This document shows positions 27,949 to 36,120 of a DNA stretch of 58,282 nucleotides, piece by piece. The position numbers and the translations under genes are program-made. Location of the stretch: positions 1 to 58,282 of the forward strand of contig JADGQS010000004.1 in NCBI GenBank assembly GCA_017881585.1, in the 5' to 3' direction. The first letter of the stretch is position 1; each line of letters begins with the position of its first letter. A model generated the notes under the pieces. That model made no database searches. It was not told where the DNA came from and saw nothing but the letters and a program-made list of their open reading frames with translations. The stretch is from Gemmatimonadaceae bacterium (GTDB taxonomy: Bacteria > Gemmatimonadota > Gemmatimonadetes > Gemmatimonadales > Gemmatimonadaceae).

Positions 27949-29349
27949 ATGCCAGACTCCGTGCGCGACCTCCGGGTCTACGATTCCGTCCTCGAGACAA
28001 TTGGCTGGACTCCGATGATCCGGCTGACGCGGGTCACGCGCGGCATCCGCACGCCGGTGTGGGCAAAGGCCGAGACCTTCAATCCCGGAGGCTCGGTGAA
28101 GGACCGGATCGGCATGCCGATCATCGAGCGCGCCGAACGCGACGGATCGCTCAAGCCCGGCGGCACGATCGTCGAGGGCACGAGCGGCAACACGGGCGTC
28201 GCGCTGGCGATCGCCGCCGCGCTCAAGGGCTACAAGTGCATCTTCACGATGCCGGACAAGATGTCGCAGGAAAAAGTCCGGCTCCTGAAGGCGTACGGGG
28301 CGGAAGTCGTCATCACGCCGACCGCCGTGCCTCCCGACCATCCGGACAGTTACGTGATGACGGCGAAGCGCATCGCGCATGAGACGCCGAACGCGATTCT
28401 CGCGAACCAGTTCTACAACCAGGCGAACCCGGATGCGCACTATGCGACGACTGGGCCGGAACTCTGGGAGCAGACACAGGGACGCATCACGCACCTCGTC
28501 GCCGGCGCTGGAACGGGCGGCACCATCACCGGTGCGGGGCGTTACCTCAAGGAAAAGAATCCGAAGATCCAGGTCGTCTGCGGCGACCCGGTGGGATCGA
28601 TCCTTGCCGAGTACTGGCGGAGCGGCGGCACGAACAAGATTGAAGGCGTACCGTACAAGGTCGAGGGCATCGGCCAGGACAAGATTCCGGACACGCTCGA
28701 CCTGCGCCTCATCGATGAATTTCAGACGGTCTCCGACCGCGAAGCCTTCGCGATGGCGCGCCGGCTCACGCGCGAGGAAGGATTGTTCGCGGGCGGATCG
28801 TCGGGACTGCTCGCGCACGTGGCGCTGAGCGTCGCGCGGCGCGTGAACGATCCCGATGCGTGCGTCGTGACGTTCCTGTGCGATACCGGCGAGCGCTATC
28901 TCTCGAAAGTCTACAACGACGAGTGGATGCGAGAGAACCAGATGCTCGACGTGGAGAAGGTGACGCTCGGACACCTGCTCGACGTGAAGGGCGAGCGGTC
29001 GCCCGCCGGCGTGATCAGCACGTCGCCCGGCGCAACGGTGCGGCAGGCACTGCGGCTCATGAGCCTGCACGACGTGTCGCAGCTGCCGGTGATGGACGGC
29101 CGCAACTGCGTGGGGTCGGTGAGCGAAAACGTGCTGAGTGTGCGCGGTCTCGAGGACGTGAAGGTGCTCGAGCGGACCGTCGGCGACACGATGGACTCGC
29201 CGTTCCCGGTCGTGGATGCCGATCATGCCATGGACGCCATCGTGAAGCTCCTCTCGAAATCGAACCCGGCGGTGCTCGTGCGCGAGAAAGGCGAGATCCG
29301 CGGCATCGTGACGCGCTCCGACATGCTGCACTACCTGATGGCGCGCTGA
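27949..29349 (+). CDS. Cystathionine beta-synthase (PLP domain plus CBS pair)
   Basis: 466 residues. The PLP-dependent fold II domain has NPGGSVKDRIG (Schiff-base lysine), EGTSGNTGVALA (phosphate/substrate loop) and GAGTGGTITGAGRYLKEK. The C-terminal 125 residues form two CBS domains (VISTSPGATVRQALRLMSLH and MDSPFPVVDADHAMDAIVKL). This domain pair is typical of cystathionine beta-synthase in transsulfuration, although cysteine synthase activity is possible. TAGATT (27937-27942) ends 6 nt before the ATG, suggesting a leaderless transcript starting within the mutS stop region. Confidence 0.88.
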   Translation: MPDSVRDLRVYDSVLETIGWTPMIRLTRVTRGIRTPVWAKAETFNPGGSVKDRIGMPIIERAERDGSLKPGGTIVEGTSGNTGVALAIAAALKGYKCIFTMPDKMSQEKVRLLKAYGAEVVITPTAVPPDHPDSYVMTAKRIAHETPNAILANQFYNQANPDAHYATTGPELWEQTQGRITHLVAGAGTGGTITGAGRYLKEKNPKIQVVCGDPVGSILAEYWRSGGTNKIEGVPYKVEGIGQDKIPDTLDLRLIDEFQTVSDREAFAMARRLTREEGLFAGGSSGLLAHVALSVARRVNDPDACVVTFLCDTGERYLSKVYNDEWMRENQMLDVEKVTLGHLLDVKGERSPAGVISTSPGATVRQALRLMSLHDVSQLPVMDGRNCVGSVSENVLSVRGLEDVKVLERTVGDTMDSPFPVVDADHAMDAIVKLLSKSNPAVLVREKGEIRGIVTRSDMLHYLMAR

Positions 29350-29350
29350 A

Positions 29351-30382
29351 GTGAGAATCACGGTGCTGATGGGCGGTACTTCGGCGGAGCGCGACGTGTC
29401 GCTCGCGTCGGGGCTCCGCGTCGCGGAGGCCCTGCGTTCCCGCGGGCACGCCGTCACGGTGGTCGATACGGTGCGGGGCGCACTCACCGAGGGGGAGGAG
29501 CGCGCCATGCTCGCGGGCCCAGTGATGCACGCGCTGCCGCCCGAGTCCGGAGCGCTGGCGCGCCTTTCGTCGGAGACGCTGTCGGCGACGGTCCGCGGAC
29601 TCGGCACGCATCGCGACGCCGAGGTTGTGTTCATCGGGCTGCACGGCGGGCATGGCGAGGACGGCACACTGCAGGCGCTCCTCGATCTGACCGGAGTCCC
29701 GTACACCGGCAGCGGACACCTCGCGAGCGCGCTCGCGATGGACAAGGATCTTTCCAAGCGGCTCTTTCGCGAGGCAGGCGTGCGCACGCCGGAATGGCTG
29801 ATGGCGCCGGCGAGTGACGACGACATCGTTTCGGCGCTCGGACTGCCGGTCATCGTGAAGCCGTCGAAGCAGGGCTCCACGGTCGGGCTCACGCTCGTGA
29901 AGAAGCGCGCCGACCTGCAGGCGGCGATCGAGGAGGCGCGCAACTACGATGACGAAGTGATGATCGAACAGTTCATCGCCGGACGCGAGCTCACGGTCGG
30001 GGTGCTCGGCGACGAGGCACTTCCCGTAGGGGAAATCATCCCCAAGCACGAAATCTACGACTACGAATGCAAGTACACGCCCGGCATGGCGCGTGAGGAA
30101 TTCCCGGCGAAGCTGTCGACCGCTGAAGCCAATGCTGCGCAGGAGCAGGCTCTGCTTGCGTTCAGGGCACTCAAGCTTTCAGGCTATGCGCGCATTGACT
30201 TCCGGATGACGGAAGACGGAACATTCTACTGTCTGGAAGCGAACACACTTCCGGGGATGACGAAGCTGAGCCTGATTCCCCAGGCGGCCGCGGCCGCGGG
30301 GATCACGTTCCCCGAGCTGTGCGAGCGGATCGTCAAACTGGCCAAGGGACTCGGGCCGAAGGACTCCGGAGAAACGCGATGA
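29351..30382 (+). CDS. ddl: D-alanine--D-alanine ligase
   Basis: 343 residues from the GTG at 29351, one base after the preceding stop. ATP-grasp fold: MGGTSAERDVSLASG and FIGLHGGHGEDGTLQALLDL at the N-terminus, GLPVIVKPSKQGSTVG for ATP binding, and ARIDFRMTEDGTFYCLEANT with the metal ligands. It makes the D-Ala-D-Ala dipeptide for peptidoglycan. Its stop overlaps the start of a degenerate QueE homologue (ATGA), beginning a four-gene coupled run. Confidence 0.95.
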   Translation: MRITVLMGGTSAERDVSLASGLRVAEALRSRGHAVTVVDTVRGALTEGEERAMLAGPVMHALPPESGALARLSSETLSATVRGLGTHRDAEVVFIGLHGGHGEDGTLQALLDLTGVPYTGSGHLASALAMDKDLSKRLFREAGVRTPEWLMAPASDDDIVSALGLPVIVKPSKQGSTVGLTLVKKRADLQAAIEEARNYDDEVMIEQFIAGRELTVGVLGDEALPVGEIIPKHEIYDYECKYTPGMAREEFPAKLSTAEANAAQEQALLAFRALKLSGYARIDFRMTEDGTFYCLEANTLPGMTKLSLIPQAAAAAGITFPELCERIVKLAKGLGPKDSGETR

Positions 30383-31041
30383 CGGGCACACCGATGGCAG
30401 CGGCAGCGTTGGCGGGAGTACCGGCCGGCGTCCAGGCACAGGGTGTTTGGGTTGGACGGCGGCAGCTGTTCGTGCGCTTCGCCGGCGAAGCGGAAACGGC
30501 CACGATGTACACTGCGGCGGCGCTCGTGCGCGAATTGGAGCGCCAGCTTGCACGTTCGAAATTCCATTCGATTTCCATCGGCGGACGCGATCCACTCGCG
30601 AACCAGGAGTTCCTGATCGCCGCGCTCGAGAGTGCCAAGCCGCCGATTCCCGTGATGCTCGACACCGACGGCCAGCGTCCGGAGACGCTCAAGACACTCG
30701 CTCCGTTTCTTGCGCTCACGCAGGTGACCGTCGAGTTCTGGGCACCGGATGCCACGCTCGCGCACGTGATCGAGACGATCGCCGAGGCCGCGCACGCAAG
30801 GTGCGCGCACGCCCTCGTGCTCTGCCCGCGCGACGACACGTCGGACGGACAGGTGTTGCGCGTCATCGAACAGGCGCACGGCGCGAGCGCGGACACACAG
30901 GTCGTGATTCATCCGCCGTCGCCCACGGGCGAGCATCCGATGCTCGACCGCCGCTGGGCGGCACTTCTCGATCAGGCCATGGCCACGCACGCCGACACGC
31001 GCCTCGCGCTGCGGTTGCCGCAGCCCGCCGGACTGCGATGA
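30379..31041 (+). CDS. Degenerate QueE-like protein lacking the radical-SAM cysteines
   Basis: 220 residues, start ATG overlapping the ddl stop. The layout follows 7-carboxy-7-deazaguanine synthase (QueE): VQAQGVWVGRRQLFVRFAG (residues 18-36; QueE has IQGEG..VG..FVRFAGC), HSISIGGRDPLANQEFL (63-79; SITGGEPLL), PVMLDTDGQRPETL (91-104; LETNGTLPE), QVTVEF (115-120) and IHPPSPTG (177-184). Where QueE has CxxxCxxC, this protein reads GEAETATMY (36-44). Only two Cys remain (142, 149), far from the cluster site, so it cannot hold a [4Fe-4S] cluster in the usual way. No signal peptide. Position next to queF suggests a link to deazapurine metabolism, but the function is inferred. Confidence 0.7.
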   Translation: MTGTPMAAAALAGVPAGVQAQGVWVGRRQLFVRFAGEAETATMYTAAALVRELERQLARSKFHSISIGGRDPLANQEFLIAALESAKPPIPVMLDTDGQRPETLKTLAPFLALTQVTVEFWAPDATLAHVIETIAEAAHARCAHALVLCPRDDTSDGQVLRVIEQAHGASADTQVVIHPPSPTGEHPMLDRRWAALLDQAMATHADTRLALRLPQPAGLR

Positions 31042-31967
31042 GCGAAGACGTGCCCATTTACGAAATACGCTCGCCGGAAGAACCGGCGCCGCGGCTCACG
31101 TCCGCGGTGCAGTGGCTGATCGCGATCAACGTCTTCGTCTATTTCATTCAGCTCACGGTCCTGAAGCCGAGCGATGTCCAACTCGCGCTCGGGTTCCAGA
31201 CGAAGAATCTCGGCCACCAGTGGTGGACGATCGGCACGTACATGTTCGTGCACGGCGGCTTCTGGTACCTCGCGCTGAACATGTACACGCTCTGGCTCTT
31301 CGGGCCTCGCGTGGAGCGGAAGTGGGGCGCGCGCGAGTTCCTGCGCTTCTATCTCTTCTGCGGACTGGGCGGCTGGTTCGCGCATCTCGTGTTCGTTCCC
31401 GGAGACTCGCTGCTCATTGGCGCCGCGGCGGCGGTGTTCGGCGTCATGCTCGCGTATGCGTCGCTCTGGCCGGACGAACAGCTCTTCGTCTTTGGAGTGA
31501 TTCCGACGACGGTGCGGTGGCTCGTGATCTTCGTCGGGGTGCTGAACATCGTGGGCGGCATCACCACGACGGGTGCGCAGAGCGGCGTCGCGTATCTCGC
31601 GCACGCGGGCGGACTCGCGGCCGGCTGGCTCTATCTGCGCATGACGGCAGCGGTGAATCTCGGCCGGTTGCGTCAGGGCGTGTCGCCCGTACCCGACGAG
31701 CCGGAAGACGTGCCGCCCCGCGCCGTGCCGCGCACGCTTCCGCGTTCGCGCGCACGCGAGCGCGACAACATCGACGACGTCGTCGCGCGCAGCAACGCGG
31801 TCGTCGCCAAGCGGACGACGTCGCCGCGCGCCACACGCGGACCGCAGGCGGAACTCGCCGCGCTCGACCAGGTGCTCGACAAGATTTCCGCCCATGGCCT
31901 CGGGAGCCTGACGTCCGAGGAGCGCCGGCTGCTCAGCGAGGAATCGAAGCGACGGAGAACGGAATAA
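31038..31967 (+). CDS. Rhomboid-family membrane protein lacking the catalytic serine
   Basis: 309 residues, start ATG overlapping the previous stop (ATGA). Six hydrophobic segments and the rhomboid pattern are clear: YMFVHGGFWYLALNMYTLWL (His72 and Asn81), GPRVERKWGAREFLRFYL, then YLAHAGGLAAGW with the catalytic-type His189. The nucleophile motif GxSG reads GAAAAVFG (128-135), with Ala at the Ser position. It is therefore probably a pseudoprotease like iRhoms or derlins, binding membrane clients rather than cutting them. A charged cytoplasmic tail of about 100 residues follows. It lies between the pseudo-QueE and queF. Confidence 0.85.
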   Translation: MSEDVPIYEIRSPEEPAPRLTSAVQWLIAINVFVYFIQLTVLKPSDVQLALGFQTKNLGHQWWTIGTYMFVHGGFWYLALNMYTLWLFGPRVERKWGAREFLRFYLFCGLGGWFAHLVFVPGDSLLIGAAAAVFGVMLAYASLWPDEQLFVFGVIPTTVRWLVIFVGVLNIVGGITTTGAQSGVAYLAHAGGLAAGWLYLRMTAAVNLGRLRQGVSPVPDEPEDVPPRAVPRTLPRSRARERDNIDDVVARSNAVVAKRTTSPRATRGPQAELAALDQVLDKISAHGLGSLTSEERRLLSEESKRRRTE

Positions 31968-32384
31968 GTGCCAAGCCCGGAACTGCTGGAGACATTCCCG
32001 AATCCGTACACCGACCGGGATTACGAGATCTTCATGACGTGTCCGGAGTTCACGTCGCTTTGTCCGCTCGGCGGGATCGAAAGCGACGCGGATGAACTCG
32101 CGCTGCTGAAGGGAGGCGCACCGGACTTCGCGACGATCAGCATCACGTACATTCCGGGCAAGCTGTGCGTGGAGCTCAAGAGCCTGAAGTTCTATCTCTG
32201 GAGCTTTCGCAACGACGGCATCTTCTACGAGCGCGTCGTGAACCGGATTCTCGACGACCTCGTGAAGGCCGTGAAGCCCAAGCGGATGAGCGTCGTCGGG
32301 GACTTCAATGTGCGGGGCGGCATCAAGTCGGTCATCACGGCGAACCACCTCTCCAAACCCGGCGCGAAGACGAAGCGCCGCTAG
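31968..32384 (+). CDS. queF: preQ0 reductase (NADPH-dependent 7-cyano-7-deazaguanine reductase)
   Basis: 138 residues from a GTG directly abutting the previous stop. Short (unimodular) QueF: the catalytic Cys is in CPEFTSLCP, DFATISITYIP carries the conserved Asp, CVELKSLKFYLWSFRNDG is the QueF signature (usually ESKSLK), and VVGDFNVRGGI ends the core. A loop of about ten residues (IESDADELALLKG) sits between the Cys and Asp motifs. It reduces preQ0 to preQ1 for queuosine in tRNA. No other queuosine gene except the degenerate QueE homologue is in the window. Confidence 0.93.
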   Translation: MPSPELLETFPNPYTDRDYEIFMTCPEFTSLCPLGGIESDADELALLKGGAPDFATISITYIPGKLCVELKSLKFYLWSFRNDGIFYERVVNRILDDLVKAVKPKRMSVVGDFNVRGGIKSVITANHLSKPGAKTKRR

Positions 32385-33307: not shown

Positions 33308-34762
33308 TCAGCGCGCGATCGAAGAGACATCGAGTACGGTGATCGTGCCGAGCTTCAGCGCCTCGATGCCGGCGCGCACCTTCGCGAGATCGCCTACGAC
33401 GACGAGCGTCGCCCTGTCCGCAGGGATGTACTGGCGTGCGACGCGCTGCACGTCGGCGGCCGTGACCGCGTTCACGCGCGACACGAAATCGTTCACCGAC
33501 GACAGCGGGAGGCCGTACGAACCGAGATCGACGAGCTGGCCGGCGATCGACGCGTTCGTCTCGAAACGGCCGGGCACCGCGAGCGCGACGTAGGCCTTTG
33601 CGCGCTCGAGCTCCTTCGCGTCGACCGGGGCGTCGCGAATGGAACGCAGCTCCCTGAAGATCTCGACGAGCGAGCTGTCGGTGACGTTGGTGCGGACCGA
33701 ACTCGCGATGACGAACGGACCCGGCAGCGGCGACCATACGAAGCGCGAACTGATGCCGTACGTGTAGCCCTTCGTCTCGCGAAGGTTGGTATTGAGCCGC
33801 GACGAGAATGATGCGCCGAGGATCGTGTTCATCACCGTGACCGCCGCGTAACCGGGACCGAGGCGATCGGCGCCGGGACTCCCGAGCTGGATGACGGACT
33901 GCGCGGCGCCGGGCTTGTCCACGAGGTAGAGCTTCACGCCGTCGTTCGCGACGGGTTTCACCAGGACCTTCGGAATCGCGGATGGTTCGCCCGCGCGTGT
34001 CCAAGCGCCGAAACGTTTTGCGAGCAGCGCGCGCATCTCCGGTTCGGTGACATCGCCGACCACCACGAACTTCGCGCGCTCCGGCACGAACGCGTGCGCA
34101 TAGAAGGTGCGCACGCGCCCCGAGTCGAGCGCGGCGGTCGAGGCGGAATCACCATCGGCCGGATTGTGATACGGGTGTCCTTCGGGAAAGACGATCTGGT
34201 TGAACGCGAGCGAGGCAACCTGCGTGGGCTGGTCACGGCGCTGCAGGATCGACTGGAGCCGCAGGTCGCGCTGCTGCTTCACGTTGTCGGAGCGGAACGT
34301 GGGGTGAAGCACGATGTCCGCCATCAGGTCGAGGGCCTCCGCGAGCGAGCGCTTGGCGACGTTGAGCTGCACGGTGAACGCCTCCGCGCCGGCGCCGGCA
34401 TTGAGCTGCGCGCCGAGAAAGGCGAGCTCGCTTTGGAGTGCGTTCGCGTCGCGGGTGCCCGCGCCCTCCGTGAGCATGCGGGCGGTGAATCCCGCGAGGC
34501 CCGGTTGTCCCGCCTCGAGCCGCGATCCACCGTCGATGACCAGCGTGACGTGAACCAGCGGAAGCGCGTGGTGCTCGACCACCTGCAGGGCGATGCCGTT
34601 CGGCATCGTGCCGCGTGCGACGGTGGGAAGGTTGAATTTCGTGCTGGTGCCGAGAGCGGGCGGCTTCGTGCGATCGATGGCGCCGGCGGCGTTCTGCGCA
34701 ACGGCCGCGAACGGGGCGCACGCAGCGATCGCAGCGAGGAGGGTGAGTTGTTTGCGGATCAT
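33308..34762 (-). CDS. Exported M16-family peptidase, non-catalytic partner
   Basis: 484 residues with a signal peptide (MIRKQLTLLAAIAACAPFAA, cleavage near VAQ). M16 fold: MPNGIALQVVEHHALPLVHV, ILGASFSSRLNTNLRETKGY and TYGISSRF. The HxxEH position reads GLAGFTARMLTEGAG, so zinc ligands are absent. ATGA overlap with the upstream catalytic M16 gene indicates obligate co-translation and a periplasmic heterodimer. pheA follows after a short gap. Confidence 0.9.
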   Translation of the reverse strand: MIRKQLTLLAAIAACAPFAAVAQNAAGAIDRTKPPALGTSTKFNLPTVARGTMPNGIALQVVEHHALPLVHVTLVIDGGSRLEAGQPGLAGFTARMLTEGAGTRDANALQSELAFLGAQLNAGAGAEAFTVQLNVAKRSLAEALDLMADIVLHPTFRSDNVKQQRDLRLQSILQRRDQPTQVASLAFNQIVFPEGHPYHNPADGDSASTAALDSGRVRTFYAHAFVPERAKFVVVGDVTEPEMRALLAKRFGAWTRAGEPSAIPKVLVKPVANDGVKLYLVDKPGAAQSVIQLGSPGADRLGPGYAAVTVMNTILGASFSSRLNTNLRETKGYTYGISSRFVWSPLPGPFVIASSVRTNVTDSSLVEIFRELRSIRDAPVDAKELERAKAYVALAVPGRFETNASIAGQLVDLGSYGLPLSSVNDFVSRVNAVTAADVQRVARQYIPADRATLVVVGDLAKVRAGIEALKLGTITVLDVSSIAR

Positions 34763-36120
34763 TGTGCGACTCCCTTCTTTGCCGCGAGTTCAGGCTTGCC
34801 CATCGGCACGACGGAAATCATGACGCGGTTCGTTTGGAGATACTGCTTCAGCACGCGCTGGACGTCCGCCGCGGTGACCGCGCGATAGCGGTCGAGGTCG
34901 GCCTGGAACGAGTCGGGCCTGCCAGTGATGTAGAAGTAACGGTTGAGCTGGTCCGCCGTGCCCCGCACCGTCTCGATGCGACGAAGGAACTGCGCTTCGG
35001 TGCTATTCTTCGCCTGTTGAAGTTCGCGGGCGGACGGTCCCTCGTTCGCGAGCCTTTTCATCTCGGCGTCGACGACCCTGCGCAGCGTGTCGAGCCCGAG
35101 TCCACGACGGGCGGTTGCAATCACGGAGAAATCTCCATCGAGGCGCATGCTGCCCTGGCGCGCGCGCACGGTCGTCGCGATCGGATTGTTGTAGATGAGC
35201 GCCTGCGTGAGGCGCGATGTGCGCGAGCCGGCGAGGATCGATGCCGCGATGTCGAGAGCGGCATCGTCGGGAGCCCATTCCTTGACCGTGTGCCAGGTGA
35301 GCTGCAGCTGGGGGAGCTGCACCCTGTCTTGTAGCGTTACTGCAGTGTCGTGTATGGCAAATGGCGCCGGCGATGGCCGCGTGATGGCGGGGCCGCGCGG
35401 AATCTCCGTGAAATATTTCTTCACGAGCGCGCGGACGTCGGCGTTCTTCACGTCGCCGGCGACGACGAGCGTCGCGTTGTTGGGCGCGTAATACCGGTGG
35501 AAGAAGTCCTTCACGTCTTCAACGGACGCGGCGGAGAGATCGGCCATCGAACCGATCACCGACCACGAGTACGGGTGGCCCGCGGGGTAGGCGAGCTGAG
35601 GGAGGTGATCCTCGACGAGTCCATATGGACGGTTCTCGACACTCTGGCGGCGCTCGTTCTTCACGACGTCGCGTTGGAGATCGACCTTCGGCTTGTCCAT
35701 GGTCGGCGTGAGCCAGCCCATGCGGTCGGCGTCGAGCCAGAGCATGAGTGGAAGCGCCGCCGACGGACCGCTCTCGTAGTAATCGGTGACGTCGTTGTTG
35801 GTCGAGGCGTTGTTGTTCGCGCCCGCGGCTTCAAGCAGGCGGTCGAACATCGGGTACTCGACGTGCTGCGAGCCCATGAACATCAGGTGCTCGAAGAGGT
35901 GTGCGAAGCCGGTGCGGCCCGGCTTTTCGTCGCCGGATCCGACATGGAACCAGGTGTTCACCGTGACGATCGGCACGGCGTGATCTTCGTGCACGATTAC
36001 CGTGAGGCCGTTCGGGAGCGTATCGAGCGTGTACGGAACGCTGAGTTTTGGTCCCTGCGCGGCCGCAATAGCCGGAGCCATCGCGAGCGCGCCCATCAAA
36101 AGCCGACGCACGAAGTTCAT
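34759..36120 (-). CDS. Exported M16-family zinc peptidase, catalytic subunit
   Basis: 453 residues with a signal peptide (MNFVRRLLMGALAMAPAIAA, cleavage near AAQG). HLFEHLMFMGS is the HxxEH zinc motif and KNERRQSVENRPYG carries the distal Glu. The sequence closely parallels the cytoplasmic M16 protein at 18.8 kb (LPNGL.V...DHA.PIV.VN.W.HVGS), so the two pairs look like paralogous duplications with different cellular locations. Likely degrades peptides in the periplasm. Confidence 0.92.
   Translation of the reverse strand: MNFVRRLLMGALAMAPAIAAAQGPKLSVPYTLDTLPNGLTVIVHEDHAVPIVTVNTWFHVGSGDEKPGRTGFAHLFEHLMFMGSQHVEYPMFDRLLEAAGANNNASTNNDVTDYYESGPSAALPLMLWLDADRMGWLTPTMDKPKVDLQRDVVKNERRQSVENRPYGLVEDHLPQLAYPAGHPYSWSVIGSMADLSAASVEDVKDFFHRYYAPNNATLVVAGDVKNADVRALVKKYFTEIPRGPAITRPSPAPFAIHDTAVTLQDRVQLPQLQLTWHTVKEWAPDDAALDIAASILAGSRTSRLTQALIYNNPIATTVRARQGSMRLDGDFSVIATARRGLGLDTLRRVVDAEMKRLANEGPSARELQQAKNSTEAQFLRRIETVRGTADQLNRYFYITGRPDSFQADLDRYRAVTAADVQRVLKQYLQTNRVMISVVPMGKPELAAKKGVAQ

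Follow-up and report, generated by a model that had tools for sequence, protein, structure and literature searches.

The window, the 58,282-nucleotide stretch of DNA from a Gemmatimonadaceae bacterium that was analysed, carries on its plus strand, at positions 30379–31041, a gene for a clusterless QueE-like protein of 220 amino acids (hereafter X), recognised by ORF translation and by its relatives. Radical-SAM proteins are defined by their iron–sulfur cluster. We tentatively propose that X descends from QueE, binds a ligand and does no radical chemistry, and that it is coupled to Ddl, the D-alanine–D-alanine ligase, and possibly acts as its partner or regulator. A selected family present in 77 species genomes, with the fold and without the cluster, would be a natural test of the other uses of the radical-SAM scaffold, and the coupling to ddl offers a direct experimental handle.

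The translation of the ORF has no internal stop and confirms the original prediction that the CxxxCxxC loop has been lost: residues 36–44 (GEAETATMY, positions 30484–30510, plus strand) stand at the place of the QueE cluster loop, and X has just two cysteines, C142 and C149, which are not conserved across relatives. Residues 19–36 (30433–30486, plus strand) form a QueE-like N-terminal motif (Q19..G22...G26-R27...F31.R33..G36) with a spacing identical to that in the genome's own QueE, and residues 68–73 (30580–30597, plus strand) read GGRDPL where QueE has GGEPL. The cysteine-less form is common to the close relatives: CxxxCxxC, Cx14CxxC and CxxC are absent from all 75 full-length X proteins extracted, 11 of which contain no cysteine at all. 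The replaced loop is identical at A38-E39-T40-A41 in 75/75 sequences, G69 and D71 are found in all 75 and R70 in 71, and in the alignment the SAM-binding GGEP motif of QueE becomes GRDP in most X proteins, with GGEP not retained. These full-length proteins come from 75 of 77 genomes, leaving out G005 for its internal deletion and G052, which lies at a contig end; 56 of the 75 sequences were used in A2, and A4 comprised 52 of 62 loci in addition to the window.

With the single protein, profile searches yielded only weak matches. Window X scored 19.5 bits against Pfam Radical_SAM (PF04055; cut-off 29.5, E = 0.0012), NCBIfam returned no model at E values up to 1 and hence no QueE model above cut-off, and BLASTP against the genome's own QueE aligned 45 residues (E = 0.001). 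Among 56 relatives of X, 28 gave a Radical_SAM match with E no higher than 1 (best 2.9e-7), seven matched the NCBIfam model NrdG2 (best E = 0.018), and the QueE models TIGR04508 (E = 0.071) and TIGR03365 (E = 0.19) were matched by one relative each, a balance that speaks for NrdG2 rather than QueE. In contrast, a profile built from the 75 relatives matched 38 QueE sequences significantly over X residues 17–101 (score 41.4, E = 1.8e-5, probability 78%). One hundred column-shuffled controls gave a mean score of 14.0 (SD 2.3, maximum 21.7), the reversed control gave 14.8, and the highest score among 11 clusters of other radical-SAM frames, drawn from three genomes, was 26.3. The set of other radical-SAM sequences covered 29 of 30 loci, each by its longest CxxxCxxC-containing frame, taken unchecked. 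The QueE profile combined 29 of 30 classic loci (L287 was left out by the motif filter) with nine sequences of the genome's own type; the 29 classic CxxxCxxC-type sequences all score under the TIGR03365 cut-off, and the best model for each of the ten tested was the QueE model TIGR04349, at 205–299 bits against a cut-off of 300. Smaller QueE profiles matched X more weakly, with probabilities of 25% and 17%. Against single sequences the groups were separated less cleanly: the X profile reached 27.1 with one radical-SAM frame, a mean of 20.5 (maximum 29.9) with classic QueE and a mean of 29.3 (maximum 34.7) with QueE of the genome's own type.

By profile comparison, X is homologous to QueE over residues 17–101. 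The end-to-end likeness originally predicted is significant for this part: the C-terminal half gave no significant QueE match alone, and an alignment forced over the full length reached a probability of 3.7% (E = 0.0036). Because the local match covers residues 17–101 only, likeness over the full length depends on how strands and helices are ordered, which by our reading of the model agrees with QueE. A search of solved structures with a 13-sequence X profile returned a methyltransferase as its best match (E = 0.26), which was taken as chance and rejected.

Structure prediction gave a confident model of X (pLDDT 91.7, pTM 0.88), and its closest folds are in line with the radical-SAM fold expected from the original prediction. 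In Foldseek comparisons with the PDB, the top matches were radical-SAM enzymes (NifB, SkfB, LipA and others) with TM scores to the query of 0.53–0.61, and no QueE chain was named among the 50 fold matches listed; in a viral structure library, the first ten matches included PFL-AE (0.70), NrdG (0.67) and two QueE-named entries (0.65 and 0.63). The model has the radical-SAM partial barrel, a fold that X would share with the superfamily (PF04055; PFL-activating enzyme, NrdG), whereas the cluster ligands are missing and the window protein stays below the Pfam cut-off. With QueE (TIGR04508, TIGR04349, TIGR03365; PDB 4njg, 6nhl), X shares its size and the N-terminal motif with its spacing, along with the strand order as we read it and, by alignment, the residues matching E. 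coli Q13 and R27; unlike QueE, it has no cluster loop, reads GRDP for GGEP, does not keep E15 or the Mg-binding loop, and gives no QueE-model match above cut-off.

Thirty-six columns are conserved in at least 95% of the 75 X sequences. E39, T40, D71, D97 and D156 occur in all 75, H178 and R100 in 74, and by our reading of the strand order the conserved polar residues would lie at the barrel mouth. Such residues could also serve catalysis, making X a new non-radical enzyme on the QueE scaffold whose chemistry would use the conserved D, H, E and R, and the same Foldseek list has barrel enzymes interspersed, namely KDO8P synthases and 3-dehydroquinate dehydratases, at low TM scores of 0.33–0.47. 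We consider this unlikely: no enzyme family has consistent support across X members in Pfam and NCBIfam and, neighbours aside, no substrate is suggested for X.

X is under purifying selection and is not a decaying copy, as the original prediction had argued. In 10 pairs from five genus members, dN/dS was 0.070–0.148; dS exceeded 1.5 in the four pairs that include L005, and residues 105–150 were looser (dN/dS 0.264). Open frames of 213–239 amino acids in 75 relatives, together with the low dN/dS, led us to reject a decaying pseudogene, and the relatives are neither sporadic nor decaying, one internal deletion excepted. That X is a relic on its way out, retained by chance, would agree with this deletion and with several independent losses (see below), but is extremely improbable, as the selection test, the open frames and the invariant loop contradict it.

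Relatives of X were detected in 77 of 179 Gemmatimonadaceae genomes, corresponding to 46 of 105 good genomes and 19 of 35 genera. In a draw of 395 genomes of the phylum, for which the best seven first-look candidates per genome were scored, 60 had X and all of these belonged to Gemmatimonadaceae; a scan of named genomes yielded 62 X loci, 61 labelled Gemmatimonad and one labelled 'bacterium'. Among the weak matches (E 0.01–1) in 295 genomes of the class, four places were inspected and judged to be chance, and viral contigs, phages and plasmids contained no X relatives at the limits used. In a Ddl tree with 61 X-bearing and 18 X-lacking rows (79 of 94 rows, after a length filter), the X label changes seven times, at least five of them forced, which we read as a single old origin in Gemmatimonadaceae followed by several losses. 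X is dispensable, given that ddl is present without X at 15 Gemmatimonadaceae loci, that the label changes repeatedly on the tree, and that one genome retains a remnant. Absence from G007, G016, G018, G046 and G056 is uninformative, because no close Ddl match was detected in these genomes. Between ddl and the rhomboid gene, no cysteine-bearing ancestor of X was found at the 15 X-lacking Gemmatimonadaceae loci or at four outgroup loci. The remnant is found in a genus member, G005 (L014/L030; G005:C106; L176 is the named record), where an in-frame internal deletion leaves a 91-residue open frame, made up of approximately residues 1–50 and 194–220, between ddl and the rhomboid gene.

In the window, X belongs to a series of plus-strand genes: a cystathionine beta-synthase-like gene (cbs, 27949–29349; 489 bits, cut-off 510), ddl (29351–30382; NF002378 and TIGR01205 above cut-off), X, a gene for a rhomboid-like membrane protein (31038–31967; below the NCBIfam cut-offs, with alanine at the GxSG serine position), and queF for preQ1 synthase (31968–32384; TIGR03139, 158.6 bits against 86.9). 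The translational coupling originally proposed for both ends of X was found, as an ATGA at 30379–30382 shared by the ddl stop and the X start and another at 31038–31041 shared by the X stop and the start of the rhomboid gene, both on the plus strand. Across the family, ddl lies immediately upstream of X on the same strand at 75/75 loci; downstream, the rhomboid gene is present at 71/75 (three of the four loci without it are contig ends) and queF at 66/75. The ddl stop and X start overlap at 53 of 75 loci (ATGA 31, TGATG 11, GTGA 8, TAATG 3), with the X start set at whichever start codon lay closest to the aligned N-terminus. At the control junctions, where any in-frame start in a range of 300 bases was accepted, overlap amounted to 0–16%: X–rhomboid in 11 of 71, cbs–ddl in 7 of 58, and ddl–rhomboid at loci without X in 0 of 16, where two loci had no candidate rhomboid start and were scored as non-overlapping. 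The constant place of X behind ddl and the start–stop coupling of the two genes across Gemmatimonadaceae are new observations.

We read X as a possible partner of Ddl, or as its regulator, on the grounds that it would be made in step with the D-Ala-D-Ala ligase. Gene coupling proves neither contact between Ddl and X nor regulation. No Ddl–X fusion was found at the 75 loci, and just two Ddl positions, both weak, tell apart the family rows with X (61) and those without it (14), so there is no sign of a co-evolved Ddl–X interface. The location behind ddl would also suit a non-catalytic regulator of cell division or the envelope, akin to moonlighting E. coli QueE. According to the study of that protein (PMC11142719), the division regulator has the QueE fold and a role independent of catalysis while being an active enzyme itself, and its R27A variant makes no queuosine and still blocks septation, which is also a precedent for a non-radical role of X beside Ddl. 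The same study states that the division role requires C31, C35 and the E45–W67 region; X lacks all of them, and a role of this kind appears highly improbable.

A second, intact queE, which the original prediction had raised as a point to check, is present in the genome beside queC; its product scores 335 bits with TIGR04508 (cut-off 240) and 287 bits against PDB 4njg. TIGR04508 passes its cut-off in 162 of the 179 Gemmatimonadaceae genomes (any match in 165), and we therefore rejected X as a substitute for a lost queE. By our count, TIGR04508 finds a match in 69 of the 77 X-bearing genomes and in 96 of the 102 in which X was not found; X thus does not stand in for QueE, nor does QueE depend on it. 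The earlier suggestion of a regulatory subunit is thus not upheld for a subunit that QueE requires, and X is tied to ddl instead.

The other role suggested at the outset was that of a sensor: X would sense a deazapurine or pterin of the queuosine pathway, with QueF or QueE as its partner, and the link to ddl would be inherited gene order. Q19 (73/75) and R33 (70/75, K in the other five) align with E. coli QueE Q13 and R27, two of the three substrate contacts, and the frequent presence of queF downstream fits as well. Nevertheless, QueE is matched in most genomes without X, QueF was found in 16 of 20 X-lacking Gemmatimonadaceae genomes tested, the overlap coupling is with ddl, and E15 is not kept, the aligned position 21 being variable; we therefore regard a queuosine-pathway sensor as somewhat unlikely. 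Single kept or lost residues are weak evidence in E. coli QueE, since the same study (PMC11142719), which gives Q13, E15 and R27 as substrate residues, describes little effect of Q13A and continued queuosine formation in the C31A and C35A single variants, with C38A abolishing it. Searches of the open-licence literature with narrow phrases found no account of a cluster-free QueE family.

In the reading we tentatively favour, X is an old QueE relative that lost the [4Fe-4S] loop and exchanged the SAM-binding GGEP for GRDP. It retained the partial barrel together with some of the wall that faces the substrate, and it carries a new conserved polar set (E39, T40, D71, D97, R100, D156 and H178). Such a protein might bind a small ligand in the mouth of the barrel and work with Ddl or regulate it. 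We infer that X cannot do radical SAM chemistry; considering that it is cluster-free yet under selection, it probably does something other than the radical chemistry of QueE, and formation of CDG from CPH4 with SAM is very unlikely because the cluster ligands are lost. Our best guess for the putative ligand is a pterin, deazapurine or nucleotide, on the grounds that Q19 and R33 are kept and queF is nearby. A wider scenario, in which the family as a whole converted a radical-SAM scaffold into a cluster-free Ddl partner that links a pterin or deazapurine signal to the supply of cell-wall precursors, is decidedly unlikely.

Several observations concern the neighbouring genes. The rhomboid-like protein (31038–31967) reads GAAA at the GxSG site and looks like a pseudoprotease; in the alignment the serine is missing at 18 of 69 X-bearing loci and at 0 of 16 X-lacking loci, counts that are not independent because related rows cluster. 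In three genus members (L244–L246), both X and the rhomboid gene are absent and ddl is followed directly by queF. The position of queF behind the ddl block recurs in most Gemmatimonadaceae loci and was not seen in the four outgroup loci of family f2. Further along the window, on the minus strand at 33308–36120, two adjacent genes resemble a YfmF/YfmH pair, with scores below cut-off.
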